Below, piece after piece: positions 36 to 21,610 of a DNA stretch of 33,600 bases (its first letter is position 1; each line of letters opens with the position of its first letter). Under the pieces are notes generated by a model, which saw only the letters and a program-made list of their open reading frames with translations, was not told the DNA's origin and made no database searches. A program made the position numbers and the translations under genes. This DNA is from Planctomycetaceae bacterium (GTDB taxonomy: Bacteria; Planctomycetota; Phycisphaerae; Phycisphaerales; SM1A02): NCBI GenBank assembly GCA_002683215.1, contig NYSY01000091.1, forward strand, positions 6,238-39,837, given 5' to 3'.

Positions 36-1492
36 GACTGGTCTCCGTTCGCGGTCGCCGGGGTGCCGTGGTCGTGCCCGTGATCACCGTGGTGCGGATC
101 GGCGGCGGGCATGACCATCTTCACTTCGGCCATGGCGATCATGGGAAGGAAGCGGCAGAACAGCAGGAACATGGTGAAGAACAGGCCGAAGGCGCCGGCC
201 ATGGTTCCGATGTCGACCCAGGTCGGAGTGAAGAACTCCCACGAGCTGGGAAGGAAGTCGTTCGCGAGCGAACTGACGATGATGACGAAGCGTTCGAACC
301 ACATGCCCACGTTCACCACGAGGCTGAGGAAGAACATCAGCGGGATGCTGGTGCGGATCGCCTTGAACCAGAAGAGCTGCGGCGTGATCACGTTGCAACT
401 CACCATGATCAGATACGCCCACCAGTACTGACCGAAGGCCCGGTTCACGAAGGCGAATTTCTCGTAGATCGCCCCCGAATACCACGCGATGAAGAACTCC
501 ATCGCGTAGGCGTATCCGACGATGCTTCCGGTCACCAGGATGACCTTGTTCATGTTGTCGAGGTGACGCAGCGTGATGAGGTTCTTCAAACCGAACAGCT
601 CGCGGGCGGGGACCGCGAGGGTCACCACCATCGCGAAGCCGGAGAAGACCGCACCCGCCACGAAGTACGGCGGAAAGATCGTGGTGTGCCAGCCGGGAAG
701 CTGAGCGACCGCGAAGTCGAAGGACACCACGGAGTGGACCGAGAGCACCAGCGGGGTGGAAAGCGCCGCGAGCAGGAGATAGGCCCGCTCGTAGCGATGC
801 CAGTGCCGGTTGCTCCCCCGCCAGCCGAGCGCGAAGAGTCCGTAGCCGATCTGCTGGAGCCGTCCCTTGGCCCTGTCGCGAAGCGTCGCGAGGTCGGGGA
901 TCAGCCCGGTGTACCAGAAGAGCAGCGAGACGGTGAAGTAGGTGCTCACCGCGAAGACGTCCCACAGCAGCGGGCTGCGGAACTGCGGCCACATCTCCAT
1001 CTGGTTCGGCAGTGGAAAGAGCCAGTAGACGACCCAGACCCGACCGACGTGGATGCCGGGGAAGATGCCGGCGCACATCACGGCGAAGATGGTCATCGCC
1101 TCCGCGAATCGGTTGATCCCGGTCCGCCAGTTCTGACGGAACAGGAACAGGATCGCCGAGATGAGCGTGCCGGCGTGGCCGATGCCGACCCAGAACACGA
1201 AGTTCGTGATGTCGTACGCCCAGGCGATGGGCGTGTTGAGTCCCCAGACCCCGACGCCCGTGAAGATCAGGTAGAGCACGCAGAAGCCGAGGACGCCGAG
1301 CAGTCCCAGCGCCCCGGCGAACCCGATGTACCAGGCGAGCGGCGCACCGGTCGACTCGCTCACCTTGGCGACCGCATTCGTCACCTGCCCGAACGTGTCC
1401 ATGTTCAACACGAGGGGGGCTCGGGTTCCCGGGACCTCCTCGGTGTTGTCGACGATGCGTCCACCGACCTGGTCTGATCTGATCGAACTCAT
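32..1492 (-). CDS. actC: Alternative complex III subunit ActC (NrfD/PsrC-like polytopic membrane protein)
   Basis: 486 aa, about 10 TM segments, NrfD-like ([48 protein letters not shown]), His-rich C-terminus. Start overlaps the actB stop (ATGA). Confidence 0.93.
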
Positions 1493-4400
1493 GATCGCAC
1501 TTCCTCGGCGAGGGTGGTCGCGGCGGCGTGACCGGCGTCATCCGCATGGTGATGATCGTCGTGGCCGGAATCGTCCCCGTGATAGTGGTCGTCATGACCG
1601 GCATCCCGCGGGACCCCGGGGTTCGAGACCTTCGCGAGGTAGCGGACCCGGGTCTTGGTGTTGAGCTCCTCGAGAAGCTGGTAGGAGACCTGCTTCTTCT
1701 GGAGTCGCGTGACCTCGCTCTTCGCGTCGTTGAGGTCGCCGAACACGATGCTTCCGGTGGAGCAGGCCTGCTCGCAGGCGCACTTGATGGCCCCGTCCGG
1801 AATGCTCCAGTCGGGGCTCGTCGCGGCGCCGCCCTCCTGGGCCCACTTGTTCTTGTATTCGATCTTCGCGGCGTTGATCCGCTGCACGCAGAAGGAGCAC
1901 TTCTCCATCACCCCGCGGTTGCGGACGGTGACGTCGGGGTTCATCTGCATGCGGCGCCACTCGTCGGGACCGCCCGAGGTGTAGTAGTCGGGCTTCACCG
2001 CGAAGAGACCTTCCTGCTCGCGGATCGGCTCTCGTCGCCAGTAGTCGAACCAGTTGAACCGCCGCACCTTGTACGGACAGTTGTTGCTGCAGTAACGGGT
2101 GCCGATGCAGCGGTTGTAGACCATCACGTTGAGACCGTCCTTGTCGTGGACGGTGGCCGCCACCGGACAGACCTGCTCGCACGGCGCGTTCTCACACTGC
2201 ATGCAGGTGACGGGCTGGACGAAGACCGCTTCCGGCGAGGCGGGATCGTCGCCCTTGAAGTACCGATCGATGCGGATCCAGTGCATCTCGCGACCGCGGG
2301 CGATCTGGTCCTTGCCCACGATGGGGATGTTGTTCTCCGCCTGGCATGCGGTCACGCACGAGCCGCAACCGATGCAGGTGTTGAGATCGATCGACATGGC
2401 CCAGCGGAACTTCGCGCCGTCGAGGTTCGTCTCCTCCCACAGGCTCAACCGGTGGGCGACGTGCACGCGATGCTTCGCGAAGTCGGGATGGCCACGGTAG
2501 TCGTCGAGATTCGTCTCGCGAATCAGGGTCGGAAGCCGCTCCTGAATGCCGGCGAGCGGGACCGCGGGGATCAGGGCGTCCATGGCCCCGTGGTCCTGGG
2601 TCTGGGCGAACGAGTAGGTGCCGCCGGTCGACGACATCGTCGCGCCGTCGGCGATCCAGGGGTTGGCAGTGGTTCGCACCCGGTACGCATCGAATCCGGC
2701 GCCATCCGCGATCGGTCCCGCATCGGCGCCCTGGCCCCAGCCGAGGGAGATCGCGACGGTGTTCGCGGCCATGCCGGGGACGGGGAAGATGGCGGCTTCG
2801 ATCTCGCGACCGCCGACCTTCACCGAGACCACGTCGCCCGTCTTCAGGCCGCGGGCCTTGTAGAGCGAGGGACTGATCAGCAGGGCGTTGTCCCAGGTGA
2901 TCTTGGTCACCGCGTCGGGGAGTTCCTGGAGCCAGCCGAGGTTGGCGAAGCGGCCGTCGTAGACGCGGGCGTCGGTGGTGAAGACCAGCTCGAGATCATC
3001 CGCGGCGATCTTCGACCGCTCGGCCGCGAGACTCGCGACACCACCCGCGATCCGGCCGGCATCGAGGGCCGGGGTGTTCGTCGGCCACGACGTGGCGTCG
3101 ATGATCCCCGCATCCAGAATCCGACGCCAGTGCGATTCGAAGGTGGTTCCGGAGGTCCGCGATCGCTCGGCCTCGGTGGCGCGGACGATGTCGTAGCCGT
3201 CCCTCGGCTCCGCACCCGCCAACTGGGCGAGCAGCTCGATCGGGCTCCAGCCCTTCTGGACGATGGGCATCATCGGCTGGATCGTGGGCTGCACGATCGA
3301 GATGGTGCCGTCGTAGGCTCGGACGTCGCCCCAGCTTTCGAGGAAGTGCGTTCGCGGAAGGTGCCAGGTCGAGGCCACGGAGGTCGCGTTCGCCCGCAGC
3401 GAAAGGTGGACGGTCTCCTTCGCGCGTCCCATCGCGTCGGCGAAGTCGAGATCCGCCGGTGCGTCGTAGACCGGGTTGCCGCCGATCATCACCAGCGTCT
3501 CCACGGCGCCGGCGCCGAGGGCGTCGGTCAGCGCGCGGATGCTCGCGGTGCGGGACGGGGCCGGGTTGGCGGTGTAGGCCACCGTCTTCCCCAGGTTCCC
3601 GAGTGCGTCGTTGATCGCCGCGGCCATCGCGTGAACCGCGGGCGGCTGGCCTCCGCCGGCCATCACGATGCAACGTCCCGGATGGGCCTTGAGATCGCGG
3701 ATCATCGCGTCGAGGATCTCGGCGTTCCGTCCTTCGAAGGTCGCGGTTCCCGCGAGCGCTTCCAGCCCGTCCATCGAGACGCCGAGGCCCCGGGCGATCG
3801 AGGCCGCCACTGCAGCCACGTCGCCGTTTCGGACCGCCATCCGATCGTCCGCGCTCATGCCGGTGATCGAGAGCACGCCTTCCACCGCGTAGACGCGGCT
3901 GAGCTTCTGGTCCTCGGAGTTCTTCGCGTCGAGCCGACGGTTCGAGGCCCAGTCGCGGGCCAGCCGGCTCGCGTTGGGATGCGTCGAAAGCGGATCGGCG
4001 TCGAGGCACACCACGATGTCGGCCTCTTCGAGATTCGGGTGGACGCGCTGAGGAGCGCCGAAGGCGATCTCGGTGCCCGCACGCTGCTGGTCGCCGGTGA
4101 TGGGTTCCCACTCGTGCCAGGTCGCCTTCGGAAAGGCGTCCATGAACTCGGCCCGCATGCGATCCATGCTGGGACTGCCCGAACATTCGGCGAGAACCGC
4201 AAGACCGGCGCCGCCGGACTTCCGAAGCTCGATGCCGAAACGCTGGTCGGACCAGGTCGCGAACGCCGCCGCATCGGACGCCTCGTCGTCGCGGTGCACG
4301 GAACGACTGCGGTGCGGGTCGTACGCCTCGAGGAGCCCGCTCTGGGTGATCGAATCGCAGGCGCCGACCGACGTCGGGTGATCCGGATTTCCTTCGAGGT

Positions 4401-4800
4401 TGATCGGGCGGCCGTCGATGCTCCTGACCAGCAGCCCCTTGGCCACCCCCCCACGCTCGCACGCGGAGGCGAAGTACACCGGGTTTCCGGGAACCCGGCC
4501 CGCGGGACGCGCGGAATAGGGCACGATGTGCGACTCGGGGATTCGGCGACAGGCGGCCACGCCCAGACCGGCCAGCGCGAACGAGGCGCCCATCAGCTTC
4601 ATGAACTGGCGACGGTCCTCACCGGCGAGCAGGTCCGCGTCGGACGGGAACTCGCGGTGCATCCACGCTCGAAAGTCCTCGGTGTCCTGGAGGTCGTCGA
4701 GACTGCGCCAGTACGCGCGGCGAGCCGGCACCACGGGGGCGTCGTCTCGCGTGCAGCCGGTGTCCTCGGGACGTTCCTCTCCTTGGTTCAGCGATGACAT
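1489..4800 (-). CDS. actB: Alternative complex III subunit ActB (molybdopterin oxidoreductase-like domain fused to Fe-S ferredoxin domain, TAT signal)
   Basis: Start taken at [13 protein letters not shown] (4800) rather than the ORF maximum. TAT-like [22 protein letters not shown]. Fe-S motifs [45 protein letters not shown]...CACEQAC. Confidence 0.93.
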
Positions 4801-5441
4801 GTGGAGCAGTTTTCCGAGGGGTTGATGTGGTAGAGGTCCTTCAACGCGACCCGTTCCTCGTAGGAGAGTTCGGTCCGCTGGTCGTAGGCGAGGTTGGTCA
4901 CTTCGGACACCGGCCGCAGTCGGTCCACCGGATTGCGGTGGCAATCCAGACACCAGCCCATCGAGAGCGTCTCGTGGCGGACCACGACCTCCATCTGGTC
5001 GACCCGGCCGTGGCACTCGACGCACCCGACCCCGCGGTTGACGTGCGCCGAGTGATCGAAGTATGCGTAGTCGGCGATGCGGTTCACCCAGACCCACTCG
5101 ATCGCCTCGCCCGTCTCGTAGCTGTTGATCACCTTCTCGAGCTTGCGGCTCTCCGGCCGGACGCCGGCGTGGCAGTTCATGCAGGTCTGGGTCGGCGGTA
5201 CCGCGGCGTGCGCCGCGGACTCGACCGTGTTGTGGCAGTAGCGGCAGTCCATGCCGAGCTCACCCGCATGCAGCGCGTGGCTGAACGGAACAGGCTGGGG
5301 CGGTTGGTAGCCGACTTCGAGCGTCTTCGGACTGAAGCCGTACGCCACGAACATCACCACATAAAGGGGGAGGAGCGCACCGACCACCGCGAGCGTGGGA
5401 AGGAGGGCGTTGCTCCAACGAGGGAAAAGAAATCTGCTCAT
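4788..5441 (-). CDS. actA: Alternative complex III subunit ActA (membrane-anchored pentaheme cytochrome c)
   Basis: Five CxxCH motifs (CRYCH, CMNCH, CVECH, CLDCH, CSTCH) after one N-terminal TM. Start taken at MSRFLFPRWSNALLPTL (5441). Overlaps actB. Confidence 0.9.
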   Translation of the reverse strand: MSRFLFPRWSNALLPTLAVVGALLPLYVVMFVAYGFSPKTLEVGYQPPQPVPFSHALHAGELGMDCRYCHNTVESAAHAAVPPTQTCMNCHAGVRPESRKLEKVINSYETGEAIEWVWVNRIADYAYFDHSAHVNRGVGCVECHGRVDQMEVVVRHETLSMGWCLDCHRNPVDRLRPVSEVTNLAYDQRTELSYEERVALKDLYHINPSENCSTCHR

Positions 5442-5845
5442 CGCGAATGGGTCCGTGACATCGGCCTCGCCGGGTACCGCCGGGGTGACGTGGCGGCGAT
5501 AAACTTCGTTCCATAATTCACGAAGTTGAACATTCCATTTTATCCCCACCTGATGATTGGGGTCAATGATAGACCTGCCCACAACAGAGAAACTGGACGT
5601 CGAATCAGCCGACCTGGAATGAAAAATCGGGTGTTTGAATATCGGTCGAGCGGCCTGAAAAGCCCGAATGAAGACATTTTGGTCGCGGTCTTTCGAGCCC
5701 CAGCGTCACCCCTGAATCTCGATTTCAGGACTCCAAACGATGTCGCCAAGGCCCAACCAATGCCGCCCCGGCTGGTCGCCAATATCCGACACAATCCAAA
5801 AAAGTCCATTTTGGCGCAAATAAGGCTTTTTTTCGTCGTGTCCGA

Positions 5846-7963
5846 TCACTGCGGCGGTGCGGAGGGGGGTTCCGGCAGATAGGCCGTCTTCAAGGTGGCG
5901 ATCGCCTCCTCGTCACCAATGACCGTCAAACGATCATCGGATTCCAACTGAAGGCCTCCGGTGGGCACGAGGGTCCTGCTGCCCCGGCGGACCAGCGCGA
6001 CCAGCGATCCCGACGGAAAATCGACTTCACGAATTTTGAGGCCGGCGATCGCTTCGGCGGGTGATCCGGGCTCCAGAACCAGCGACAGGTAACGATCGTC
6101 CCGCAGCAGCACCTCGCGGAGGGCTTGATGGCTGCGGGCCGAGGACCAGGCATCCTGGAATCCTTCCTGCTCCACGCAACCGGCGAGCTGCGCCAGGATC
6201 CGGAGGTGCAACGCCGGATCACCGGCGGGACTCACGAGGAAGAAGATCGCCCGCACGTCCCGATGCCTCGTGGTGGACGGCATCGATTCGCCGACGTCGA
6301 TCGAGATGCCTCGCCTCGATCGGACCACGACGAGGTAAGGCCGGGAGATGTCCGGAAGTCGGAGGTGCGGCAGTGCGACACCGCGGGTGACCGGGGTCGC
6401 ACCGACCCGCGTGCCCTCGAGGAACTGCGACGCGATCCGGGCGGCATCGATGCCCACCATCGGGGCGAGTCGATCGGCCGCCTTCGCCGTCATCTCCTCG
6501 AAGTCCGCCCCCTCCCCCGCCTCCATGATCTCGGAAGTCGCGACGACCTCGTCGAACGGATCGTCGGCGCGAAGACCACGTTCCTTCATGATCCCGCGGA
6601 GTTCGGTGTCCAGACCGTCGAATCGGCGCTGGCCGAGTCGCGCGAAGACGTGGTAGATCGCGCCGCCGCGGTCGATCCGCTTGCTCGCGTAGGCGAAGAA
6701 CCAGACCACGCCGAGCACCACCATGCCGACCGCGAAGAGCGTCGGCGCGGTGCCCATCTGCGTGATCAGCCAGCAGGGACCGAGGATTCCCGCGAGCGGA
6801 ACCCACGGATACAACGGCGTCCGGAAGCTCGGATCGTACGACTCGATGTTGCTCTCCCGCATCACGATCACCGCGAAGCAGATCAACGCGAAGAGCACGA
6901 GCTGGAACGCGCTCGCGAGCTTCGCGATCGAGAGCACGTCGATGAAGAGAATGCAGAAGATCACCGCACCCACCGTGAGCAGCAGCGAGACGATCGGAAT
7001 TCCGTTCTTGTTGATGCTGCGGAAGATCCCGGGGATCAGGTGATCCCGGCTCATCGCGAGGGGGTATCGCGAGGAACTCATGATGCCCGCGTTCGCGACC
7101 GACATGAACGCGAAGAGCGCCGCGACGGTCACCAGGACGAGCCCCGTGGTTCCCGCGAACGATCGAGCCGCATCGCCGACCGGCGTGAGGCTCTTGGCGA
7201 GCTCCGCCGGCGGCGTCACGCCGACGATCACGATCATGCCGACGAGGTAGACCGCCACCGCGGTGCCGAGCCCGAGGAAGATTCCCAGCGGGAGGTTGCG
7301 CTGCGGATTCTCGACCTCCTCGGCGACGCTCGCGACCTTGGTCACGCCGACGTAGCTGATGAAGACCAGTCCGGCGGTCGCGAACACGCTCGCCCCGCCC
7401 TTGTCGAAGAATCCCGAGAAACGCGCGGTGTCGATCGCGAACGTGCCCTGCACCATGAACCATCCGAGCAGGGTGAGCAGTCCGATCACCATCACGATCT
7501 GAAAGCGGGTGGTCGCCTTCGCGCCCATGAAGTTCACCCCGCCGAACAGCAGGGCGAGCGCCACCGCGATCCCCTCGATCGGCGCGTCCGCGAAGAACAG
7601 CGTGATGTACGCGCCCATGCCGACCAGCGCGAACGACGCCTTCAGGAGCAGGGCGAGCCAGGTGCCGAGACCACCGATCGTGCCCGCGACGGGCCCGAGG
7701 CTTCGATCGAGGAAGAAGTAGGTTCCGCCGGCCTTCGGCATCGCGGTCGCGAGCTCCACCTTGCAGAGCATCGGGGCGACCATCATGGCGGCCGCCACCA
7801 GATAGGCGACGATCACCGCCGGACCCGCCTGCTGGAAGGCGAGTCCCGGCAGGAGGAAGAACCCGGCGCTCAACGTGGTGCCGGTCGCGACGGCGAAGAC
7901 GCCGAAGAGATTCAACTCCTTCTTGAGGGTCGGGGCGGTCGGTGCGCTTTCTTCGGCGGCCAT
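5846..7963 (-). CDS. APC-family amino-acid permease with C-terminal PTS EIIA-like and TrkA-C-like domains
   Basis: N-terminal APC fold (LNLFGVFAVATGTTLSAGFFLLPG...). Cytoplasmic tail has GVALPHLRLPD (EIIA phospho-His context) then a RCK/TrkA-C-like segment (LKIREVDFPSGSLVALVRRGSRTLVPTGGLQLESDDRLTVIG). Start taken at MAAEESAP. Confidence 0.85.
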   Translation of the reverse strand: MAAEESAPTAPTLKKELNLFGVFAVATGTTLSAGFFLLPGLAFQQAGPAVIVAYLVAAAMMVAPMLCKVELATAMPKAGGTYFFLDRSLGPVAGTIGGLGTWLALLLKASFALVGMGAYITLFFADAPIEGIAVALALLFGGVNFMGAKATTRFQIVMVIGLLTLLGWFMVQGTFAIDTARFSGFFDKGGASVFATAGLVFISYVGVTKVASVAEEVENPQRNLPLGIFLGLGTAVAVYLVGMIVIVGVTPPAELAKSLTPVGDAARSFAGTTGLVLVTVAALFAFMSVANAGIMSSSRYPLAMSRDHLIPGIFRSINKNGIPIVSLLLTVGAVIFCILFIDVLSIAKLASAFQLVLFALICFAVIVMRESNIESYDPSFRTPLYPWVPLAGILGPCWLITQMGTAPTLFAVGMVVLGVVWFFAYASKRIDRGGAIYHVFARLGQRRFDGLDTELRGIMKERGLRADDPFDEVVATSEIMEAGEGADFEEMTAKAADRLAPMVGIDAARIASQFLEGTRVGATPVTRGVALPHLRLPDISRPYLVVVRSRRGISIDVGESMPSTTRHRDVRAIFFLVSPAGDPALHLRILAQLAGCVEQEGFQDAWSSARSHQALREVLLRDDRYLSLVLEPGSPAEAIAGLKIREVDFPSGSLVALVRRGSRTLVPTGGLQLESDDRLTVIGDEEAIATLKTAYLPEPPSAPPQ

Positions 7964-8060
7964 GGCGTGAAGTCCTCGTGGTCCCGGTCGTCGAAGCGGC
8001 ACGTGCCGCGTCCGGCAGATGGTACTCGCCCGCGACTCGACGTCACGAGGGCGGGAGACG

Positions 8061-8066
8061 TATCCT
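8061..8066 (+). promoter_or_regulatory. Candidate -10 element (TATCCT) 6 nt before the tatD GTG start
   Basis: TATCCT-caccgc-GTG, with weak -35-like TCGACG at 8037-8042 (18-nt spacer). Confidence 0.3.
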
Positions 8067-8072
8067 CACCGC

Positions 8073-8861
8073 GTGTTCGACACCCACTGCCATCTGACCT
8101 TCGACTGCTTCGAGCACCGGATCGACGCGGTGCTCGCCGACGCCCGGAAAGCCGGCGTCCGGGGCTGCATCTCGATCTCGACCACGACCGCGGACCTTCC
8201 GCGACTCACGGCGCTCACGGACCTTCATCCCATGGTCTGGTGCTCCTCTGGCGTCCATCCGCTCTACAGCGACCGCCCCATCGACTGGGCCGCGATGGAG
8301 ACCGCCGCCCGCCACCCCAGATGCGTCGCGTGGGGCGAGCTCGGTCTCGATCACCACTATTCCGAGCCGGCTCGCGACCTGCAGCGGTCCGTGCTGGAGG
8401 AACAGCTCGCTCGGATCGAGGCCTGGACCGAGGTGGGGCTGGCGAAACCCGTCGTCGTCCACTGCCGGAAGGCCTTCGAAGACCTGATCCCGATCCTCGA
8501 CGCCTCGACGCTTCCGAACGACCGGTTCGTCTTTCACTGCTTCACGGGCGACGAATCCGACGCCCGAGCGGTGCTCGACTTCGGAGGATGGCTCTCGTTC
8601 ACCGGCATCGTCACCTTCTCGAACGCCGCGGAAGTCGCCCGGGCGAGCGATCTGGTTCCGGACGATCGGATCATGGTCGAGACGGACGCCCCCTTCCTGA
8701 CGCCGGAACCGCACCGGAACGTCCGGCCCAACGAACCCCGCTACGTCGGATGCACCGCCGCCTTCCTGGCCGCACGGCGGGGCCGGGATCCGAGTGCCTT
8801 CGAGGATCTCCTCGACGCGAACGCGGCCCGATTCTTCGAAATCGAGATCCCGGAGGGGTGA
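8073..8861 (+). CDS. tatD: TatD-family metal-dependent hydrolase (DNase)
   Basis: VFDTHCHLTF start (GTG), GELGLDHHYS, VVHCRKAF, VFHCFTG, VETDAPFLTP motifs. Confidence 0.9.
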   Translation: MFDTHCHLTFDCFEHRIDAVLADARKAGVRGCISISTTTADLPRLTALTDLHPMVWCSSGVHPLYSDRPIDWAAMETAARHPRCVAWGELGLDHHYSEPARDLQRSVLEEQLARIEAWTEVGLAKPVVVHCRKAFEDLIPILDASTLPNDRFVFHCFTGDESDARAVLDFGGWLSFTGIVTFSNAAEVARASDLVPDDRIMVETDAPFLTPEPHRNVRPNEPRYVGCTAAFLAARRGRDPSAFEDLLDANAARFFEIEIPEG

Positions 8862-11382: not shown

Positions 11383-11907
11383 TCAGCGGGTCGAGGTCCG
11401 GCGCCAGGCCGCCGCGAGTCCGATCGCCACCAACGGCACCCACGCGAAGATCGCGGGCCACATCGTCCGCCACGGTGGAATCGCGTCACCCACGACCAGT
11501 TCGAAGACGACCGGCGCCGCGGGGCCTTCCCCGTCGGGGTCCAGCCGCATCGACCAGGCGCCGGGAATTCCGAGGTCGAGCAGGGCTCGATGTTCGTCGG
11601 CGAGAAGCCCCGGTTCGAACGCCGCAAGGAGCTCGAGGCCGTCGACGTGCCGGGCCGTGACCGACGCCTCCGGATGGCGAGCGCCGACCCACGCGATCTC
11701 GATCTCGCCGATCCGCGGCGCGGGCGGCGAGACGATGACCGCGGACGGCCGATCGAGCCGGAGTCCGGTCCACACCACCACCCCGCCGTCCGCTTCGGCC
11801 GGAACCGTCGCGATCCACAGCGGCATCGTGAAGAGCAGCGACATCCAGCGGCTTCGGCGAAGGCCGCGGGGCCTGGTCCGGAGATGTCCCGCGGGCCGGT
11901 GCGTCAT
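11383..11907 (-). CDS. FixH/YtkA-like membrane-anchored periplasmic protein (putative oxidase/copper accessory)
   Basis: 174 aa. N-terminal signal/TM (WMSLLFTMPLWIATVPAEA), beta-rich domain, C-terminal TM (WPAIFAWVPLVAIGLAAAW). ATGA overlap with the CtaG fusion gene. Assignment is by context and topology. Confidence 0.5.
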   Translation of the reverse strand: MTHRPAGHLRTRPRGLRRSRWMSLLFTMPLWIATVPAEADGGVVVWTGLRLDRPSAVIVSPPAPRIGEIEIAWVGARHPEASVTARHVDGLELLAAFEPGLLADEHRALLDLGIPGAWSMRLDPDGEGPAAPVVFELVVGDAIPPWRTMWPAIFAWVPLVAIGLAAAWRRTSTR

Positions 11908-14222
11908 GGCATGAACCCCGAGGTGCCGCGCATCTCCATCGGCTGGAAGACGATCCAGGCGGTGATCGCCCACAGACCCACGAGCACCATCGCCGACGGC
12001 AGCCAGCGTCGGGTGACCGCGTCGGGCGAAGTCGTCGAACCGACGGAGATCGCGGCCGCCCGCCACCCCCACCACGCGACGCCGAGGCTGCCCGCGAGTC
12101 CGATCGAGAGCACGAGCAGTTCGGCGGGCAACATCCAGTCCGGCGGTGGGACGCAGCAGCTCAGGATCCGATCCGGCATCTGCGACGTCGCCCCGAGATC
12201 GTGCCCGACCCGGGTCAGCGCCGCCTCCGCGGTCGGCCATCCCGTGACCAGGTGGAATCCGAAATGCACGATCCACATCGCGGTCCCGAGCGGCGTCACC
12301 GCGAGACCGATTCGAACCAGCCGCTCGGCCCGCGGCACGCCCCGATCACCGGTCGACGCCAGCCCGAGTCCGAGCAGGCCGACGAGGATCGCGGCGAGCA
12401 CGAAGCCCCCTTCGAGCAGCCACCGCGGTCCGATCGGGACCCGGTCCATCGCCTCGACGACCGGCGCCGTCATTCCCGCCGCGTTCACGATGCCGCCGAT
12501 CGCGATCACCGCGAGCAGCACGCCCACGTCGAGCCGGCGGGCCAGCCGGCCGAATCCGCTGCGGACGTCCGCGACCGCGAGGTCCGCCCCCGGTACCTGC
12601 CGCACGATCCCCACGTTGTCGTGGGGACAGGCGGTGACGCAGTCCAGACAGAAGGTGCAGTCGAGGTTGCCGGACTTCTTCGGAATCAGAAGGCCCAGTC
12701 CGCATCCCGGCCCACGCGGGCCGCCGACCACGCAGTCGCGGGTGGTGCAGGTGTCGCACCGGCTCGGATCGATCGCCGACACCGTCCGAGACGACATCGT
12801 CGACGTCGCCATCTGGTACTGCCCCACCGGACAGACGTATCTGCAGAAGGCCGATCCTTCGAAGAGGAGGTCGACGCACGTCGCCGCCCCGACCAGCCCG
12901 AGCAGAAGCATCGCGGTGGCGAAGGGGCTGTCCCAGAGATCGAACGCCTCGTAGACCACGAGCCACGCCACCACCAGACCGACCGCGAGCCATTTGGAGC
13001 GCAGCCCCCGCGGCCACTTCCGCGTTGGGCGGATCCAGCGACGAAGGACCCCGCGCGGCGCAACCAGCGGACAGGCGAAGCACGCGACGTTGCCCAGCAG
13101 CAGCGCGATCAGGACCACCCCGCCTCGCCAGTGCGTCCAGGGCAGCGTGCCCGCGAGGTTCATCGGCGATTCGTCGGGACCGAGGATGCCGTCGATCGCG
13201 ATCCCGATCAACACCGCGAGCGAGGCGAGCCGGAGGCCGAGTCGGAACCGCGCCGACCGCAGCATCCGTCCGAGCAGCGGCGTCCGGAGCAGATCGCCGC
13301 GATCCGGAGTCGCGGGGAGCACCCGCAGCGCGACACCCGCGGACGTGGGGGTCGCGATCGGCGCGTGATCGGCCGTCGATCGTCCCAGCAGCCATCGCGC
13401 CGTGATCACCATCGCCGGCACCAGGTACGCGAGATTCCCCGGGACCCACATCAGACCGGCGGCGAGCTGCTGGTCGCGGATCGCGTCGACGCCATGCGCC
13501 GCGGAGACCGTCGCGTACCACCCGTAGACCGGTGCGCTCGCGAACGCGAGCGCCGCGCTCACCACCGTGTTCACGATGTCCGCGGTGACGAGGTAGGGGA
13601 TCATCGTGATCCGGGGCCAGGGCGACCGGACCGGGAACGGCTGGACCACCGGCAACCAGAAGAGGAGTCCCGCCCCGAGCATGGTGACATGCTCCACCAG
13701 ATGCCAGGTGGGATCCTGGATTGCGAGTTCGTACGCGGCCGGAACGTGCCAGCCCAGGGTCGCGGCGGCCATCGCGATCCACCCGACCACGGGGTGCGTG
13801 ATTCGCCGCATCGTGTTCCGCACCAGGGGCGAGGCGAGCAACGGACCGACGATCCCCGATCGGATCGACCGCGGAAGCCCCATCAGCATCGGCATCGCCG
13901 GAGCACCGAACCACCACAGCGGCGGCACCACCAGGGCGAGCAGCATGTGCTGGATCATGTGCGCCGACAGCGTGCGCTCCGCGGCCGCGTCGAGCGGGGT
14001 CGCGATCGCCACCAACAGGCCCGTCCAACCGAGCACGAACGACCCGAGACGCCATGCTGGAAACCGCCTCGCGGTTCGTGGTCCGCCGCGTCTCAACCGG
14101 CGCCGGCCCGTCACGTAGATGGAGATCGACACCACGGCGGCCACCGCCGTCCACGGCGCCGTGCCCACCGTCGCATCGAAGAGTTCACCCGTTGAGATCA
14201 TGCCGAACGACGCGAGTGACAT
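11904..14222 (-). CDS. Fusion protein: CtaG (caa3-type oxidase assembly) domain + NapH/CcoG-like membrane polyferredoxin domain
   Basis: CtaG-like HMIQHMLLALVVPPLWW, LGWHVPAAYELAI, HLVEHVTMLGAGLLFW. C-terminal CFACPLV, CRYVCPVGQY, CDTCTTRDC...GC, CTFCLDCVTACPH. Confidence 0.85.
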   Translation of the reverse strand: MSLASFGMISTGELFDATVGTAPWTAVAAVVSISIYVTGRRRLRRGGPRTARRFPAWRLGSFVLGWTGLLVAIATPLDAAAERTLSAHMIQHMLLALVVPPLWWFGAPAMPMLMGLPRSIRSGIVGPLLASPLVRNTMRRITHPVVGWIAMAAATLGWHVPAAYELAIQDPTWHLVEHVTMLGAGLLFWLPVVQPFPVRSPWPRITMIPYLVTADIVNTVVSAALAFASAPVYGWYATVSAAHGVDAIRDQQLAAGLMWVPGNLAYLVPAMVITARWLLGRSTADHAPIATPTSAGVALRVLPATPDRGDLLRTPLLGRMLRSARFRLGLRLASLAVLIGIAIDGILGPDESPMNLAGTLPWTHWRGGVVLIALLLGNVACFACPLVAPRGVLRRWIRPTRKWPRGLRSKWLAVGLVVAWLVVYEAFDLWDSPFATAMLLLGLVGAATCVDLLFEGSAFCRYVCPVGQYQMATSTMSSRTVSAIDPSRCDTCTTRDCVVGGPRGPGCGLGLLIPKKSGNLDCTFCLDCVTACPHDNVGIVRQVPGADLAVADVRSGFGRLARRLDVGVLLAVIAIGGIVNAAGMTAPVVEAMDRVPIGPRWLLEGGFVLAAILVGLLGLGLASTGDRGVPRAERLVRIGLAVTPLGTAMWIVHFGFHLVTGWPTAEAALTRVGHDLGATSQMPDRILSCCVPPPDWMLPAELLVLSIGLAGSLGVAWWGWRAAAISVGSTTSPDAVTRRWLPSAMVLVGLWAITAWIVFQPMEMRGTSGFMP

Positions 14223-14240: not shown

Positions 14241-15770
14241 TCACCTGGATGCGACGGACGCATCAGCCTCGTCGAGCGGCGCAGTGGGATCGACCGTCGG
14301 AGATTCGTCCCGGCCGGGCTGCATCTCCATCGCGCCGGGAATCGTCGCGGGCAGATCGCCGCCGTCGAGCGTCGACAGGAACGCGACCAGTGCCTGGGTC
14401 TCCGCGCTGCTCAGGTTCTTTCCGTAGGCCGGCATGTTTCCACCGCCCTGCTGGATCTGACGCACCAACTGATCCCAGCTCAACCGGGTCGCGACGTCGT
14501 CGAGCGCCGGTCCGCGCTTGCCGCCTTCCCCGCCGATCGAATGACAGTTCCGACACTGGGCGTACTGCAGCTGGATCGCACCCTGGAGTTCGAGGGGCGA
14601 ACGATGCCGGACGTACTCGACGGGCGTGGGAATCGAGGTCCACGCCTTCATCACGGGACTCCACGGTGAACCGATCCCGAGCCAGGTGAGCACCAGGAGC
14701 GCGGTGACGATGATGCAGAGGATGATCACCGAGAGCGGGCGTCGTGAAGGCGCTCTCTCGCCGGTCGGTGAAAGGAACGGCAGCGCGGCGAGCAGCGCGA
14801 TCGCGACCGGTGGCCCGACCAGGATCAGGAAGGTCTCGGTCTGCGGCGGCAGGAGCGCCAGTACCGCGAACAACCACAGGAAGAGGGTGTCGGGACGCGG
14901 CGCGACCTCGATGCTCTGCGGGTCCGGGAGGGGCCCGGGTCCGATCGGCCCGTACCACGAGGCGATGCCGATGAGCGCGATCAGCGCAGCGCCGCAGAAC
15001 ACCATGTCCCGCCGAGCCGCATCGGGGAAGAACGGCACGCCGGTCTTCTTGACCCGCTTCTCGTAGTCCTCGCGATAGGTCTCGCGTTCGATCGGCTGGC
15101 CGACCTTCGGCATCTCGCTGATCCCACCCTTCAGAACCAGGATGAGGTGGACGCCGATCAGACCGATGAGCGTCCCCGGCAGGATGAACACGTGCAGTGC
15201 GAAGAACCGGCTGAGCGTCGCACCCGAGATGTCGGGGCCCCCGAGAACCACCGAGCGAAGCCAGTTGCCCGCGAACGGAACCCGGTCGACGATCGCCGCG
15301 CCGATGCCGAGACCCCAGTACGCGTTGGCGTCCCACCGCATGATCTGACCGGTGAACGCGAGCCCGAGCGTGGTGAGACAGAGGAAGACCCCGGCGACCC
15401 AGGTCAGTTCCCGCGGGAACTTGTAGGTCCCGTGCAGGAACACCTGCGTCATGTGGATGAGCATCATCACGCACATCGCATTCGAGCTCCACCCATGCAG
15501 GGCCCGGATCATCCAGCCCATCGGAATGCGCTGATCGATGTAGATGAGGCTCTGGTAGGCCTCCGCGGCGCTCGGGACGTAGATCGTGGTGAGCAGGATC
15601 CCGGTGACCAGCTGCACCATGAAGAACATCAGCGTGGCGCTGCCGAAGACGTACCACCACTTTGCGCTGCGCGGAACCTTGTGGAACATCGCGTGCTCGG
15701 CGACCGAGACCAGTCCGGTCCGGTCGTCGACCCAGTCGAGACTCTTCCTGACGTTGCCTTCCTGCTTCAT
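14241..15770 (-). CDS. Cytochrome b (b6 + subunit IV-like) fused to C-terminal cytochrome c domain
   Basis: Heme-b ligand pairs H-x13-H (HGWSSNAMCVMMLIH) and H-x14-H (HVFILPGTLIGLIGVH). C-terminal CRNCH heme-c site with downstream Met (GGNMPAYGKNLS). Confidence 0.92.
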   Translation of the reverse strand: MKQEGNVRKSLDWVDDRTGLVSVAEHAMFHKVPRSAKWWYVFGSATLMFFMVQLVTGILLTTIYVPSAAEAYQSLIYIDQRIPMGWMIRALHGWSSNAMCVMMLIHMTQVFLHGTYKFPRELTWVAGVFLCLTTLGLAFTGQIMRWDANAYWGLGIGAAIVDRVPFAGNWLRSVVLGGPDISGATLSRFFALHVFILPGTLIGLIGVHLILVLKGGISEMPKVGQPIERETYREDYEKRVKKTGVPFFPDAARRDMVFCGAALIALIGIASWYGPIGPGPLPDPQSIEVAPRPDTLFLWLFAVLALLPPQTETFLILVGPPVAIALLAALPFLSPTGERAPSRRPLSVIILCIIVTALLVLTWLGIGSPWSPVMKAWTSIPTPVEYVRHRSPLELQGAIQLQYAQCRNCHSIGGEGGKRGPALDDVATRLSWDQLVRQIQQGGGNMPAYGKNLSSAETQALVAFLSTLDGGDLPATIPGAMEMQPGRDESPTVDPTAPLDEADASVASR

Positions 15771-15771
15771 G

Positions 15772-16347
15772 TCAGGTCGTCTCCTGCAATCCGGGCAGTC
15801 GCCCGCCGAGGATCTCGAAACTGTCCCCGTCGATCCGCCACTCGTACTCGAAGAGTCCGCGCGGCGGCGGCCCCGACGCCCGGGAACCGTCCTCGTAGTA
15901 GACGCCGCCGTGACACGGGCACATGAAGAGTCGCGACTGGGCGAACCACTCCACGGGACAGCCGAGGTGTGCGCAGTTGACCGCGAAGACCTGGAAGGTC
16001 TTGGGGTCGATGCACCGAACGTAGCAGACGTTCTCGTTGGTCTCGCCGTCGGTCGGGGAGTCCCAGGGATTGGTGAACTTCACCAGCACCGTCTGGCCGG
16101 GCTTGAAACGGGCGGGTTTGCCGAGCGAGACCCAACGATTGGGATCGCTCGCCTCCGCCGGGGCGATCGCGACGCCGACGATGGGGATCGCCGCGAGCCC
16201 GCCGCCCACGGTGAGCAACGTGGTGCCGGCGGCGAACAGGAAGCCGCGGCGGCCACCCTTGTTCGCGCCGTCGCATCCTTCGCACGGCGACCCGGGGTTG
16301 GGATCGGTCTCTTCGGTCGCGGTGGTCTCTTCGGTCTTCTTGGTCAT
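15772..16347 (-). CDS. Rieske [2Fe-2S] iron-sulfur protein (QcrA/PetC-like)
   Basis: CAHLGC and CPCHGG cluster-binding boxes. TAT-like RRGFLFAAGTTLLTVGGGLAA. Confidence 0.93.
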   Translation of the reverse strand: MTKKTEETTATEETDPNPGSPCEGCDGANKGGRRGFLFAAGTTLLTVGGGLAAIPIVGVAIAPAEASDPNRWVSLGKPARFKPGQTVLVKFTNPWDSPTDGETNENVCYVRCIDPKTFQVFAVNCAHLGCPVEWFAQSRLFMCPCHGGVYYEDGSRASGPPPRGLFEYEWRIDGDSFEILGGRLPGLQETT

Positions 16348-17132
16348 GGGGCACCATCCTTCACTTCAGGACCCGAGGGCAGGCTGGACCGGCCCGCACC
16401 GAGATACGCGACGAGATCCGCGACGTCGCCGGCGTCGAGCGTGCCTTCGACGGTTCGTCCGTCGGGCCCGCGGAAGGGACCGGTGGCACCCGGCATGCCG
16501 AGGTCCGCGCGGCCGAAGACGATGTTCGAGTGCAGATGCTGATCGCTGACCAGTCGGAGGTAGAACGGATCGGTCACGCTTCCCGCGACCAGTGGATCGG
16601 GGTCCGGATCGACGGCGCGATCCGCCGGCTCGTCGGACGGATGACAGGACGCGCACTTCGCGGCGAAGAGACGGGCTCCGCGGGTCGGATCGCCGTCACC
16701 GGCATCCACCTTCCAGGGGATCCCCTGCGAAACGCCCTTCGCGCCGGCGTCGCCCCAGGCGGATCGCATGCCTTGGACGAACGACCGGATGACCTCGTCG
16801 TCGAGTCCGCCGATGGCATCGCCACCGAAGCCGGGCATCCGGCTGGACGGAATGCCGTCACGGATGATGGAGAACATCGTGTCCTCCGGGACCGCCCTGA
16901 GATATTCGCCGTTCCGCATCGGCAGCCCGGCCCCGAGGGCCCCGTCCGCCCCGTGACAGCCCGAACATCGATCGGTCCAGGTCGCCTGGAAGCCCGCGGG
17001 CGTCGACGCCAGCACCACCGGCGGCGGATACGGCGGAGGCTTGCCGGGAAGCCGATCGCAACCCGAAGGCGCGGTACCGGCCAACACCGTCAGCAGCGCC
17101 GAGGCGGCGATCGTGCGGGTGATTCGGGTCAT
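16344..17132 (-). CDS. Diheme cytochrome c (QcrC-like by position), probable lipoprotein
   Basis: CSGCH and CASCH heme sites. N-terminal signal MTRITRTIAASALLTVLAGTAPSGC. Start taken at 17132; ATGA overlap with the Rieske gene. Confidence 0.82.
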   Translation of the reverse strand: MTRITRTIAASALLTVLAGTAPSGCDRLPGKPPPYPPPVVLASTPAGFQATWTDRCSGCHGADGALGAGLPMRNGEYLRAVPEDTMFSIIRDGIPSSRMPGFGGDAIGGLDDEVIRSFVQGMRSAWGDAGAKGVSQGIPWKVDAGDGDPTRGARLFAAKCASCHPSDEPADRAVDPDPDPLVAGSVTDPFYLRLVSDQHLHSNIVFGRADLGMPGATGPFRGPDGRTVEGTLDAGDVADLVAYLGAGRSSLPSGPEVKDGAP

Positions 17133-17137
17133 TCGGC

Positions 17138-17992
17138 TCACGGTTCGCCGCCCTCCGAACGCTCGACGCCCATTCGTTGTTCCAGGCTCCACCCCACCTT
17201 GAGCGGCACCATCGTCGCGCGGGAGATGACGAATCCACAGGCCAGTCCGAACGCCACCTGGCTTCCGAGGAACCACGGCCAGGAGATGTAGTCCTCCAGC
17301 GTCGGGTTCACGATCCGGAGGGTGGCCCACGCGATCCCGGTCCAGATGACCGGCGCGATCAGTCCGCCCGCAAGCAACGGACGCCGCGGCATCATGGGAA
17401 GCGACACCACGAACACCATGCCCACCGCGAGACTCAGGGAGACATGCAGGCCGACCGACGTCGCGAACCAGGTCCCGTTGAACGCCATCAGCTGGGCTTC
17501 GGTCGCCTCGCCGATGGAGGGGAGCACCGTGCCGGCGAGGAGGTTGACGGGCAGCCAGAGGCTGCCGGCATCGAACAGGCCCCAGCCGACGGCGACCACC
17601 GCCATCGCGATCGCGCCCGCGATCGCACCCTTCACCCCGCTGCGATACGGATGAATCCGCTCGGGGACGACGTTGCGTTTCGTCTTCTCCGGCCGCGGCG
17701 CGAACTCGGGTGGCGGCAGCGGGGTTTCGCAGTCCGCCACCGGGATCGCCTCGACGTTCTCGTGCGGGAAGACCTCGCGGAACCATCCGATCACGCCCAC
17801 CAGCGCGAACGCGGCGCCCACCACCACCACGAAGATGTTGGTGACGATGGCGGCGAACATGAAGGTCACCCCGAACGCGGTGATGATCGGCCAGGGCGTC
17901 GGCCGCGGAATCGCCCGCAGATACGGCATCTCCCGGACCTCGCGCGGGGCGAGTGCCGCCCGCTCGTCTCGTTGCTCGGCTCGCTCCGTCAT
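17138..17992 (-). CDS. Cytochrome oxidase subunit IV-like N-terminus with additional polytopic membrane domain
   Basis: N-terminal PWPIITAFGVTFMFAAIVTNIFVVVVGAAFALVGVIGWFREV resembles bacterial subunit IV. The C-terminal part has several more TMs. Start overlaps the coxC stop (ATGA). Confidence 0.6.
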   Translation of the reverse strand: MTERAEQRDERAALAPREVREMPYLRAIPRPTPWPIITAFGVTFMFAAIVTNIFVVVVGAAFALVGVIGWFREVFPHENVEAIPVADCETPLPPPEFAPRPEKTKRNVVPERIHPYRSGVKGAIAGAIAMAVVAVGWGLFDAGSLWLPVNLLAGTVLPSIGEATEAQLMAFNGTWFATSVGLHVSLSLAVGMVFVVSLPMMPRRPLLAGGLIAPVIWTGIAWATLRIVNPTLEDYISWPWFLGSQVAFGLACGFVISRATMVPLKVGWSLEQRMGVERSEGGEP

Positions 17993-18618
17993 GACGCCGG
18001 CGCTCCCTGCGGCACCCGGCCGACGATGTAGACGAGGGTGAAGACGAGGATCCACACCACGTCGACGAAGTGCCAGTACCAGGTCGCGATGTCGACCCGC
18101 TGGTGATCACGATCGGGCCGGATGCATCCGAACATCGATAGGATCAGGACGATGACCAGAATCAGCATCCCGACGATCACGTGGAAGGCGTGAAGGCCGA
18201 CCAGGGAGTAGAAGTTCGTGCCGAAGGCGTTCGACTGGAGGGTGAGGCCCTTGTCCTCGATGAGCCCCCACCATTCGTAGCCGGTGCCGACGAGGAATTC
18301 GAGACCGAGCAGGATGGTGAGCGCGAGCCAGAACCGGAACGCGCCCATCGCACCCCGGGCGAGGGCCCGGACCGCGATCACCACCGTGAAGCTGGAGGAG
18401 ATCAGACAGGCGCTGTTGATCAGCACCAGGTCGAGCTCGAGGCATTCGAGCGGCTGGGGGCCGTCGGGACTCTTCCCGATGTAGTAGAGATACGTCACGA
18501 GGAACGCGCTGAAGATCGCGCTCTCCATGAAGATCAGGCAGGCCATCCCGACCTTGGCGCGGGACAGCGGTGACCGAAGCCTCACGCCGGCATCCTGATT
18601 GGCGGGAAGCGTCGTCAT
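17989..18618 (-). CDS. ctaE: Cytochrome c oxidase subunit III
   Basis: ESAIFSAFLVTYLYYI, GLHAFHVIVGMLILVI, WYWHFVDVVWILVFTLVYI. Confidence 0.93.
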   Translation of the reverse strand: MTTLPANQDAGVRLRSPLSRAKVGMACLIFMESAIFSAFLVTYLYYIGKSPDGPQPLECLELDLVLINSACLISSSFTVVIAVRALARGAMGAFRFWLALTILLGLEFLVGTGYEWWGLIEDKGLTLQSNAFGTNFYSLVGLHAFHVIVGMLILVIVLILSMFGCIRPDRDHQRVDIATWYWHFVDVVWILVFTLVYIVGRVPQGAPAS

Positions 18619-18660: not shown

Positions 18661-20346
18661 TCACTCGTAATACGCATCGGGATCCTCCGGGTTCTTCCGG
18701 TCCCACAGGGGACGAGCGCTGGTGCAGGTCGGGATTCGATCGAAGTTCCATTCCGGCGGCGGGCTGGTCGTCGACCATTCGAGGGTCCAGGCGTCCCACG
18801 GGTCGTCACCGGCGACCGGGCCGCTTCGCAGGGATTTGATCGCGTTCCACAGGAAGATCGCGACGCCGGCCATCTGCACCGGCACGCCGATCGAGCTGAT
18901 CAGGTTCCAGATCTCCCAACCGCGATCGGCTTCGTAGGTGTAGATCCGTCGCGGCATGCCGAGCGCACCCGAGACGTGCATCGGCATGAAGGTCAGCGTG
19001 AAACCGATGAACAGCAGCCAGAACGTCCACTTCCCCAGTCGTTCGTCGAGCATCCGACCGGTCGCCTTCGGGAACCAGTAGAAGATCGCCCCGAAGATCC
19101 CGAACACCGTGCCGCCGAAGAGGACGTAGTGGAAGTGACCGACCACGAAGTAGCTGTCGGAAAGCTGCCAGGTGAGCGGGACGGTGGCGAGCATGATCCC
19201 CGTCAGGCCGCCGATCACGAACATCGCGACGAAGCCGGTCACGAAGAGCATCGGCGTCGTGAAGTGGAGTCGTCCGCCCCACATCGTGCCCAGCCAGTTG
19301 AAGATCTTGATGCCGGTGGGGACGGATATGAGGAACGTCGTCGCGCCGAAGAACGAATCGAGGACCGGCCCCAGGCCGACCACGAACATGTGGTGGGCCC
19401 AGACGCCGAGCGAGATGAACCCGATCCCCACCGTCGCGGCCACCATCAGCGGATAGCCGAAGAGGACCTTCCGACTGAACGTCGGCATGATCTCGCTCAC
19501 GAATCCGAACGCCGGCAGGATCAGGATGTAGACCTCCGGATGCCCGAAGAACCAGAACAGGTGCTGCCAGAGGATGGCCGACCCCTGGGTCTCGGGATCG
19601 AAGAAGTGCGCACCGAGCGTGCGGTCCAGAAGCAACATGACCTGGGCACCGGTGAGGATCGGAATCGCGACCAGCACCAGGAACGCGACCACCAGCATCA
19701 TCCAGCCGATCATGGGCATCCGCATCAGCGTCATGCCCGGACAACGCATGCAGAGGATCGTGGCGATGAAGTTGATCGCGGTGGTCATGCTGCCGAAGCC
19801 GCTGACCATGATTCCGAGAATCCAGTAGTCGGTGCTGTTGCCGCGGCTGAAGGTGCGGCTGGTCAACGGGGCGTAGGCGAACCAGCCGACGTCCGGGGCG
19901 GTGCCCGCCCCGTAAAGACCGTCCGCACCGAGGTAACTGAAGTAGAGCAGCAGTCCGCCGAAGATGAAGAGCCAGAAGCCGAACGCGTTCAATCGCGGGA
20001 ACGCCATGTCCCGCGCCCCGACCATGAGGGGGATCAGGTAGTTCCCGAACCCCAGCAGGATGGGCATGCCGACGAGGAACACCATCGTCGTGCCGTGCAT
20101 GGTGAAGAGCTGGTTGAACGTCTCCGGATCGATGACGTCGTTCTCGGCCCGAGCGAGCTGCAGCCGCATGAACGCGGCCTCGAGTCCGGCCACCAGGAAG
20201 AAGCAGAGCCCCGCCCCGATGTACATGAGGGCGAGCTTCTTGTGGTCCACCGAGATCGCCCACCGCATCACCGACTCCCAGAAGCGACCACGGCCACCAC
20301 CGCTGTGCAGCGAGGCCGGTCCGGGATGTCGTGGTGCGGTGCTCAT
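18661..20346 (-). CDS. ctaD: Cytochrome c oxidase subunit I (heme-copper oxidase, A1-like)
   Basis: WQHLFWFFGHPEVYILILPAFG, FTTPMLFVTGFVAMFVIGGLTGIML, SYFVVGHFHYVLFGG, VGARDMAFPRLNAFGFW. Confidence 0.96.
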   Translation of the reverse strand: MSTAPRHPGPASLHSGGGRGRFWESVMRWAISVDHKKLALMYIGAGLCFFLVAGLEAAFMRLQLARAENDVIDPETFNQLFTMHGTTMVFLVGMPILLGFGNYLIPLMVGARDMAFPRLNAFGFWLFIFGGLLLYFSYLGADGLYGAGTAPDVGWFAYAPLTSRTFSRGNSTDYWILGIMVSGFGSMTTAINFIATILCMRCPGMTLMRMPMIGWMMLVVAFLVLVAIPILTGAQVMLLLDRTLGAHFFDPETQGSAILWQHLFWFFGHPEVYILILPAFGFVSEIMPTFSRKVLFGYPLMVAATVGIGFISLGVWAHHMFVVGLGPVLDSFFGATTFLISVPTGIKIFNWLGTMWGGRLHFTTPMLFVTGFVAMFVIGGLTGIMLATVPLTWQLSDSYFVVGHFHYVLFGGTVFGIFGAIFYWFPKATGRMLDERLGKWTFWLLFIGFTLTFMPMHVSGALGMPRRIYTYEADRGWEIWNLISSIGVPVQMAGVAIFLWNAIKSLRSGPVAGDDPWDAWTLEWSTTSPPPEWNFDRIPTCTSARPLWDRKNPEDPDAYYE

Positions 20347-20359
20347 GGTCGACTTCCGG

Positions 20360-21523
20360 TCAGTTCAGCGTCAGGAGATAGTCGGTCACCGCATCGAGTT
20401 CCGCGGTGTCGAGCTTGAGGGAGGGCATGTTGCAACCGATCTTCAACTGGGCCGGGTCGTCGATCCAGGCCCGCAGGTTCTCACGGTTGAGCGGAATGAA
20501 CCCGGAGCCGATGGTGTCACGGCTCGCGAGGTGGGTGAGGTTCGGTCCGAACATGCCGTCGCTCGTCCCGTCGACCGTGTGGCAGTTGAGACACGCGTAT
20601 TCCGCGAAGACTCCTCGCCCCTCGGCCACCTTCGGATCCTCGACCCCCGGCTTCCGCTGGGCGTCGAGCCAGGCGTCGAAGTCCTCGGGTTCGTCCGCGT
20701 AGACGCGGATGAGCATGTGGGCGTGCTGGGTGCCGCAGTACTCGGCGCACTGCCCGAGGTAGATGCCGGCCCGGTCGGCCTCGAACCACGTGTAGTTCGT
20801 GTGGCCCGGAATCAGATCCATCTTGCCCGCGAGTCGCGGGACCCAGAAGCTGTGGATCACGTCCGCCGACTCCAGGCGGAGCCAGATCGGCCGCCCCGCC
20901 GGGACGTGCATCTCATTCGCGGTCACCACTTCGCCGGCGTCGCTGGGGTAGCGGAACTCCCACCACCACTGATGTCCGATCACGACCACCTCCAGCGCAT
21001 CCTCGGGCGGCGAGGTGATGTCGATGTCCCGGATGGTTCGGATGGTCACCATCGTCAGCACGAACACGATGATGGTCGGGATCACCGTCCACGCCACCTC
21101 GATCGGGACGCTGCCGTAGACCTGGGTCGGCTCGGGGGATCCACCGGCCCCGCCTTCGCGGGCCGCCCGGCGGGACCGGATCCCGCGGACGATGGCGATC
21201 ACCAGGAACCCCTGGACCACCACGAAGATCACGATGCAGATCGCGAAGACGAGGAATCCAAGATCACGGATCTCGCGGGATGGCGGGGACTCCGGCTCGA
21301 AGATGCTGGTCACGCCGGCGCCGGACACCGGTGGCGCATCAGGGTCGCAGATCACGAGTTTCGCGTCGAGGTCCGCGACCGATCCGTCGGGCTGTCGGAC
21401 CGGTGCCGGCGCGGGCGGAACCGGAGGGCCCGCCGCGGACGCGTTGGTGTCGTCCTGCGAGGCTTCGATCGGCGCAGTCATGCCCGTCACGCACAGTGCG
21501 ACGGAGAAGACGATCGCGATCAT
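20360..21523 (-). CDS. ctaC: Cytochrome c oxidase subunit II with fused cytochrome c domain (caa3 type)
   Basis: GHQWWWEFRYP, CuA site CAEYCGTQHAHM, C-terminal CLNCH. Start at MIAIVFSVALCV preceded by GAGG. Confidence 0.94.
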   Translation of the reverse strand: MIAIVFSVALCVTGMTAPIEASQDDTNASAAGPPVPPAPAPVRQPDGSVADLDAKLVICDPDAPPVSGAGVTSIFEPESPPSREIRDLGFLVFAICIVIFVVVQGFLVIAIVRGIRSRRAAREGGAGGSPEPTQVYGSVPIEVAWTVIPTIIVFVLTMVTIRTIRDIDITSPPEDALEVVVIGHQWWWEFRYPSDAGEVVTANEMHVPAGRPIWLRLESADVIHSFWVPRLAGKMDLIPGHTNYTWFEADRAGIYLGQCAEYCGTQHAHMLIRVYADEPEDFDAWLDAQRKPGVEDPKVAEGRGVFAEYACLNCHTVDGTSDGMFGPNLTHLASRDTIGSGFIPLNRENLRAWIDDPAQLKIGCNMPSLKLDTAELDAVTDYLLTLN

Positions 21524-21564
21524 AGATCGAAATCCTCGCAAGACGGCTTTTCCTTTCTGCTTCA

Positions 21565-21591
21565 AACGCCGGTAACGCCGGTGACGCCGGT
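21565..21591. repeat. Three tandem 9-bp units (AACGCCGGT AACGCCGGT GACGCCGGT) in the ctaC 5' region
   Basis: Direct reading: one substitution in 27 bp. Confidence 0.85.
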
Positions 21592-21610
21592 GCGTCGACG
21601 CGCGCAATAT

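Follow-up and report, generated by a model that had tools for sequence, protein, structure and literature searches.

Proteins of the Caa3_CtaG family have been assigned a tentative role in CuB insertion (PMC9145763), and both their mode of working and the enzymatic reduction of copper in the Bacillus subtilis pathway have been stated as open questions (PMC13344008). B. subtilis CtaG carries an invariant Asp, D249 (PMC8239418), and in the same organism the YtkA domain of YcnJ supports caa3 (Cta) function (PMC13344008). A Caa3_CtaG domain can also be part of a larger protein, as in CtiP of Corynebacterium glutamicum, a CopD-Caa3_CtaG fusion needed for the bc1-aa3 supercomplex (PMC9145763). Reduction of copper by iron-sulfur proteins has been described for the cupric reductase CcoG, which has two [4Fe-4S] clusters, and for Archaeoglobus fulgidus CopZ, in which a copper chaperone is joined to a Cu(II)-reducing Fe-S domain (PMC7558416). 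The locus described here joins a Caa3_CtaG domain to a membrane polyferredoxin in one polypeptide. No description of such a fusion was found in a search of mainly open-access literature, and the architecture is apparently undescribed.

A single reading frame joins CtaG to a membrane polyferredoxin

The fusion gene occupies positions 11904..14222 on the minus strand of the window (the whole stretch of 33,600 nucleotides that was analysed; all window features given below lie on this strand). It is a single ORF of 772 aa with an ATG start and no internal stops, and is kept as one ORF in relatives. An earlier note on this DNA had read a CtaG domain and a polyferredoxin in one 772-aa polypeptide, and this reading was borne out by the uninterrupted frame, by a NapH match in the C-terminal half and by a match of residues 35-278 (13389..14120), with seven TM helices, to the Pfam domain Caa3_CtaG (PF09678, E=3.6e-55; 187.4 bits against a gathering score of 27.7). 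The motifs that it had quoted were all present in the translation (HMIQHMLL, WHVPAAYELAI, HLVEHVTML, CFACP, CRYVCP, CDTCTTRDC...C and CTFCLDCVTACP). The Cox11 domain of Cox11-type CtaG (PF04442) was not found in the fusion protein by the Pfam search, and the score with the Bacillus-type CtaG equivalog TIGR02737 was 58.1 bits against a cut-off of 279.35.

A variable, disordered cytoplasmic linker, residues 282-304 (13311..13379), with pLDDT <50 in the structural model and gappy in the alignment, leads into a NapH/CcoG-like membrane polyferredoxin module with nine TM helices, residues 305-772 (11907..13310), which was delineated from the NCBIfam NapH match, hhalign and the alignment. The earlier note had placed this half with CcoG and NapH alike. 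Kinship with NapH stood, as residues 402-537 matched the NCBIfam model NapH/MauN (TIGR02163) with E=1.5e-5, although with 24.7 bits against a cut-off of 213, and hhalign gave 97.4% with NapH-like proteins of the same order against 93.2% with CcoG. The CcoG label did not hold in the same way, the CcoG model TIGR02745 giving no match to the fusion protein at E<=1 in the NCBIfam search. Fer4-type Pfam models matched the C-terminal half, all below their cut-offs. A bona fide CcoG or NapH was thus rejected by the model cut-offs, the profile comparison indicating distant kinship, and by these profiles the polyferredoxin module is nearer NapH than CcoG. Among solved structures no sequence relative was found, and no fold match to the AlphaFold model was significant (best E=0.17).

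The fusion gene lies within a caa3 oxidase operon

The gene order around the fusion is COX2 with cytochrome c, COX1, COX3, a subunit IV-like gene, cytochrome c, Rieske, cytochrome b(c), the fusion and a YtkA/FixH-like gene. The subunit II gene (20360..21607; PF00116 and PF00034) bears a C-terminal cytochrome c domain, and therefore the oxidase is of the caa3 type, in agreement with the earlier note, which had placed a caa3 oxidase upstream of the fusion. It is followed by subunit I (CtaD; 18661..20346), which scored above the cut-off of TIGR02891, subunit III (17989..18618; PF00510) and a subunit IV-like membrane protein (17138..18055), named from a weak Pfam match (E=0.0029) and synteny. A cytochrome c protein with two matched cytochrome c stretches in Pfam (16344..17110, start approximate), a Rieske iron-sulfur protein (15772..16347) and a cytochrome b with a C-terminal cytochrome c domain (14241..15770) come next, the last two assigned from Pfam and synteny. 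This operon context is established, and it is not peculiar to the window: in the synteny comparison oxidase or bc-complex genes stood beside the fusion in most loci, and most of the gene order recurred in most loci with long enough flanks. The fusion loci without such genes included short contigs and a few longer ones, e.g. L146 and L166.

Downstream, a short exported YtkA/FixH-like protein with one C-terminal TM helix is encoded at 11383..11907, its ATG overlapping the TGA of the fusion gene, and this start-stop overlap is frequent in other loci. The name rests on weak family matches in homologues, 16/31 of which matched Pfam YtkA and 8/31 FixH, all with weak E-values; the window copy itself had no Pfam match.

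Other genes of the region were also noted. Positions 1489-5582 of the window hold genes of an alternative complex III, which we take to be ActA/ActB-like from their motifs; such genes are near the oxidase operon in several congeners too, and thus two quinol-oxidising complexes sit close together. A second membrane polyferredoxin with Fer4_5, Fer4_7 and C-terminal TPR repeats is encoded at 29812-31893. Outside the window, the contig that bears the oxidase operon also has a Sco-like gene (G000:C86:2573-2980).

Conserved residues and predicted membrane topology

Conservation was counted in an alignment of 49 fused homologues. The putative ligands of the CtaG half, H88, H92, H159, H174, H178 and D250, were invariant (49/49), and D250 corresponds to B. 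subtilis D249 by position rather than by alignment. Equally invariant were twelve cysteines of the module. Two pairs belong to a CxxCP motif at the cytoplasmic end of TM9 (CFACP, residues 381-385, 13068..13082; C381, C384) and a cytoplasmic CxxxCP motif (CRYVCP, residues 460-465, 12828..12845; C460, C464). The other eight are ferredoxin cysteines, also cytoplasmic (C489, C492, C497, C507, C522, C525, C528 and C532; 12627..12758), and would be enough for two [4Fe-4S] clusters. Further along the module, HxxxH at the outer end of TM14 (H653, H657; 12252..12266) was invariant, as were P761, M762, M764, R765 and G766 of the C-terminal QPMxMRG at the outer end of TM16 (residues 760-766, 11925..11945), which in the window protein reads QPMEMRG and follows five TM helices. 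Together, HxxxH and PMxMRG make up a new signature. Each Cys of a CysCys pair in an outer loop (C689-C690, 12153..12158) was present in 41/49.

The AlphaFold2 model of the fusion (mean pLDDT 88.9, pTM 0.66), in which the mutual placement of the halves is unreliable, placed seven membrane helices in the CtaG half and nine in the polyferredoxin half. These membrane-crossing helices are our own assignment on the model, with sides alternated along the chain. Predicted inner loops carried ~38.7 K+R per protein versus ~6.8 in outer loops, and this bias places the clusters inside and the His, Met and CtaG ligands outside. By the positive-inside rule and the model, therefore, the Fe-S clusters are predicted to be cytoplasmic, and the CtaG ligands, HxxxH, CysCys and QPMxMRG to lie at the outer face.

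Distribution, intactness and phylogeny

A profile of the fusion recovered, in each of 61 genomes from the family to which the window belongs, a single stop-free full-length ORF (full length, by our count, meaning from model position 17 or lower to 757 or higher). Among named relatives, CtaG and the module were in one frame in 77/80, the remaining three beginning at the first base of their contig, i.e. being cut by contig ends; as these are the best 80 of 438 matches, the proportion is not a population frequency. The same domain order, the spread of which the earlier note had left to a search of other genomes, was thus found to be widespread, in Planctomycetota, Acidobacteriota and Verrucomicrobiota, with identities of 37-72% across the three phyla. 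Among the carriers are Lacipirellula limnantheis I41 (L131), whose chromosome is closed, and the named strains Spartobacteria LR76 and Acidobacteriaceae KBS 96, and an independent MAG (L108) has the same architecture at 93% identity. Retention of the single-ORF fusion at such identities in three phyla indicates that the halves serve one task. The frameshift or assembly join that would have undone the earlier reading is not seen in the 61 family genomes, the 77/80 named loci or L108. The one genome with an apparently split gene, G014, was set aside, the break consisting of scaffold Ns only. The one point toward an artefact of assembly or annotation is that the source MAG is fragmented, and no supporting evidence for it was found; given the 61 family genomes, the three phyla and the closed isolate chromosome, such an origin is practically inconceivable, and the fusion and its conservation are established.

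Related modules occur in other architectures. In three loci one or two YHS domains are attached to the module (L045:9630-11798, L046:8435-10582, L047:9675-11528). The module of these proteins is homologous to that of the fusion and has its 12 cysteines, HxxxH and PM.MR; unlike the fusion, they have YHS domain(s) at the N-terminus in place of CtaG. YHS domains are often metal-associated. Since the YHS-fused module adjoins NapA-like, NapG-like and NapH-like genes in L045 and L046, the module is, judged by its sequence neighbourhood, an electron-transfer unit that can be employed in settings other than oxidase assembly. The corresponding region of L047 encodes an arsenite-oxidase-like large subunit. 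A stand-alone module clade without CtaG (L188-L193) has no oxidase genes nearby. In genus g6 (two MAGs; L043 in G012 6636-8600, and L206 in G190) the fusion proteins are of ~655-667 aa and the whole segment with the eight ferredoxin cysteines is gone, CxxCP, CxxxCP, HxxxH and PMxMRG being kept, and so the clusters are not always needed.

On a quick maximum-likelihood tree of the module (79 rows), the fused versus stand-alone state needed one change. With the YHS-fused relatives as outgroup, on a long branch, the six stand-alone modules formed one clade lying amid fused ones, and because of this nesting loss of CtaG in the stand-alone clade is likely. Phylum labels needed three changes, and the tree is consistent with an old CtaG-polyferredoxin fusion.

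CcoG, Cox11 and Sco in related genomes

Co-occurrence was surveyed in 40 related genomes, with CcoG scored above its cut-off. CcoG was present in 10/11 genomes with CcoN (cbb3) and in 0/29 without. None of CcoG (TIGR02745), CcoN and Cox11 was found in the window's genome, a MAG 68.6% complete, in which single-genome absences are weak. CcoG was not found in 16/17 fusion genomes, as is expected since these lack cbb3; in the exception, G022, the two systems coexist on separate contigs. That CcoG and the fusion mostly exclude each other was set aside as functional evidence, being largely explained by which oxidase is present. Cox11 (PF04442) was found in 0/40 of the related genomes and Sco-like proteins in 35/40. 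This pattern fits a division of labour with the fusion on the aa3 branch and CcoG on cbb3, and because CcoG is absent from 16/17 fusion genomes and Cox11 from all 40, the fusion is the obvious candidate for the job of CcoG on the aa3 branch. One contig (G009:C44) carries two divergently oriented extra CtaG-like genes (L051 and L204) and three strong Sco-like matches, and is possibly a second copper-assembly cluster.

Proposed function and rival explanations

We consider the chances about even that the fusion is a CtaG copper-insertion factor with its own CcoG-like reductase, serving the adjacent caa3 oxidase, and no other reading is better supported. The earlier note had likewise proposed that Cu(II) reduction is coupled directly to copper insertion into the caa3 oxidase, and this part of it has partial support. 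The C-terminal half would take electrons from a cytoplasmic or quinol donor via two cytoplasmic [4Fe-4S] clusters and keep copper as Cu(I), and the CtaG half would hand Cu(I) to a copper site of the oxidase, CuB in subunit I being the likeliest. The outer-face HxxxH and PMxMRG would make up a second copper site, facing the same way as the CtaG ligands, and the YtkA/FixH-like protein may be an outer-face partner of the fusion, as FixH accompanies CcoG. The identity of the metal, the electron donor, the reductase activity and the oxidase copper site served are all things that we infer. Such a fusion points to copper reduction at the place of insertion. A reductase role for the fusion is favoured by the invariance of the CtaG ligands and all 12 module cysteines in the 49 homologues, by the oxidase/bc genes adjoining most loci and the YtkA/FixH-like gene next to the fusion, by the coherent topology, and by the precedent of Archaeoglobus CopZ, an Fe-S-fused copper chaperone that reduces Cu(II) (PMC7558416). 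Set against it are a module that is not CcoG by model and nearer NapH, the related modules with YHS beside NapA-like molybdoenzymes, the stand-alone ones with no oxidase genes near, the lack of all eight ferredoxin cysteines in genus g6, and the position of the clusters inside and the candidate copper sites outside, with no membrane-bridging cofactor identified. A fuller version appears to us rather doubtful, namely that one polypeptide is both cupric reductase and insertion machine, in which electrons arrive at a hitherto unnoticed outer-face copper site of the polyferredoxin half (HxxxH and PMxMRG, sometimes CysCys), and this half passes Cu(I) directly to CtaG and then to the oxidase, as an aa3-branch counterpart of CcoG/FixH that is ancient in Planctomycetota, Verrucomicrobiota and Acidobacteriota.

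General electron transfer is a serious rival to copper reduction. The module could be a NapH/NosR-like unit, for quinol oxidation or cytoplasmic electron exchange, feeding a partner other than copper, e.g. the heme a3-CuB centre while it is being activated, or the cytochrome b/Rieske/cytochrome c chain encoded alongside, the CtaG fusion only bringing it to the oxidase. That the closest profile is NapH, that related modules are found in NapA-NapG-NapH clusters and that genes for a cytochrome b and a Rieske protein share the operon of the fusion all speak for such a unit, which we nevertheless think unlikely, since a copper-insertion domain is the specific fusion partner throughout three phyla, the invariant outer-face His and Met are typical copper ligands, and the YHS domains of the other architecture are themselves often metal-associated.

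The g6 fusions, without the eight cluster cysteines yet with CxxCP, CxxxCP, HxxxH and PMxMRG kept, would fit a module that acts chiefly as a conduit or scaffold for copper in the membrane (HxxxH, PMxMRG, CysCys), its clusters being secondary, whether regulatory, structural or redox-sensing, and HxxxH and PM.MR are also conserved in the YHS-fused relatives. Strict invariance of the eight cysteines in the 49-sequence alignment makes this improbable. It is still harder to credit that the module does not reduce copper itself but instead disulfides, or holds CuA/Sco thiols or heme in the reduced state: the outer-loop CysCys pair (41/49) and the Sco-like proteins of 35/40 relatives are in keeping with this, but the pair is not invariant, the fusion lacks a thioredoxin-like domain, and ferredoxin-type thiol reductases as a rule depend on a specialised active-site cluster. 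The conserved fused polyferredoxin ties CtaG to electron transfer and supplies invariant residues to mutate, and the cluster-less genus g6 and the stand-alone modules are controls made by evolution.

Comparison with known systems

The NapH/MauN quinol dehydrogenase ferredoxin subunit is the best profile match to the module, but the fusion is far below the family cut-off, is longer, has extra conserved outer-face motifs and lies in a different operon, with oxidase genes and no napA/napG beside it; nap-like genes adjoin only the YHS-fused relatives. With the CcoG/RdxA/FixG cupric reductase the fusion shares a membrane polyferredoxin, cytoplasmic CxxCP/CxxxCP, eight ferredoxin cysteines, an oxidase-assembly context and a FixH/YtkA-like neighbour. 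It differs in five additional C-terminal TM helices, a region that bears HxxxH and PMxMRG, in a caa3 rather than cbb3 operon, and in being joined to CtaG; moreover, the C-terminal Ig-like periplasmic domain of CcoG is absent, the YtkA/FixH-like domain being a separate gene. Archaeoglobus fulgidus CopZ likewise joins a copper-handling domain to an iron-sulfur domain, but is a soluble cytosolic chaperone, unlike CtaG and NapH in kind. In CtiP, as in the fusion, a Caa3_CtaG domain is joined to another membrane module, although that partner is CopD-like, stands on the N-terminal side and has no iron-sulfur clusters. With the Caa3_CtaG proteins themselves (PF09678; Bacillus subtilis CtaG) the fusion shares seven TM helices, outer-face His, an invariant Asp and a caa3-type oxidase operon, and it differs in its C-terminal nine-TM polyferredoxin and in its low score with the Bacillus equivalog model TIGR02737.
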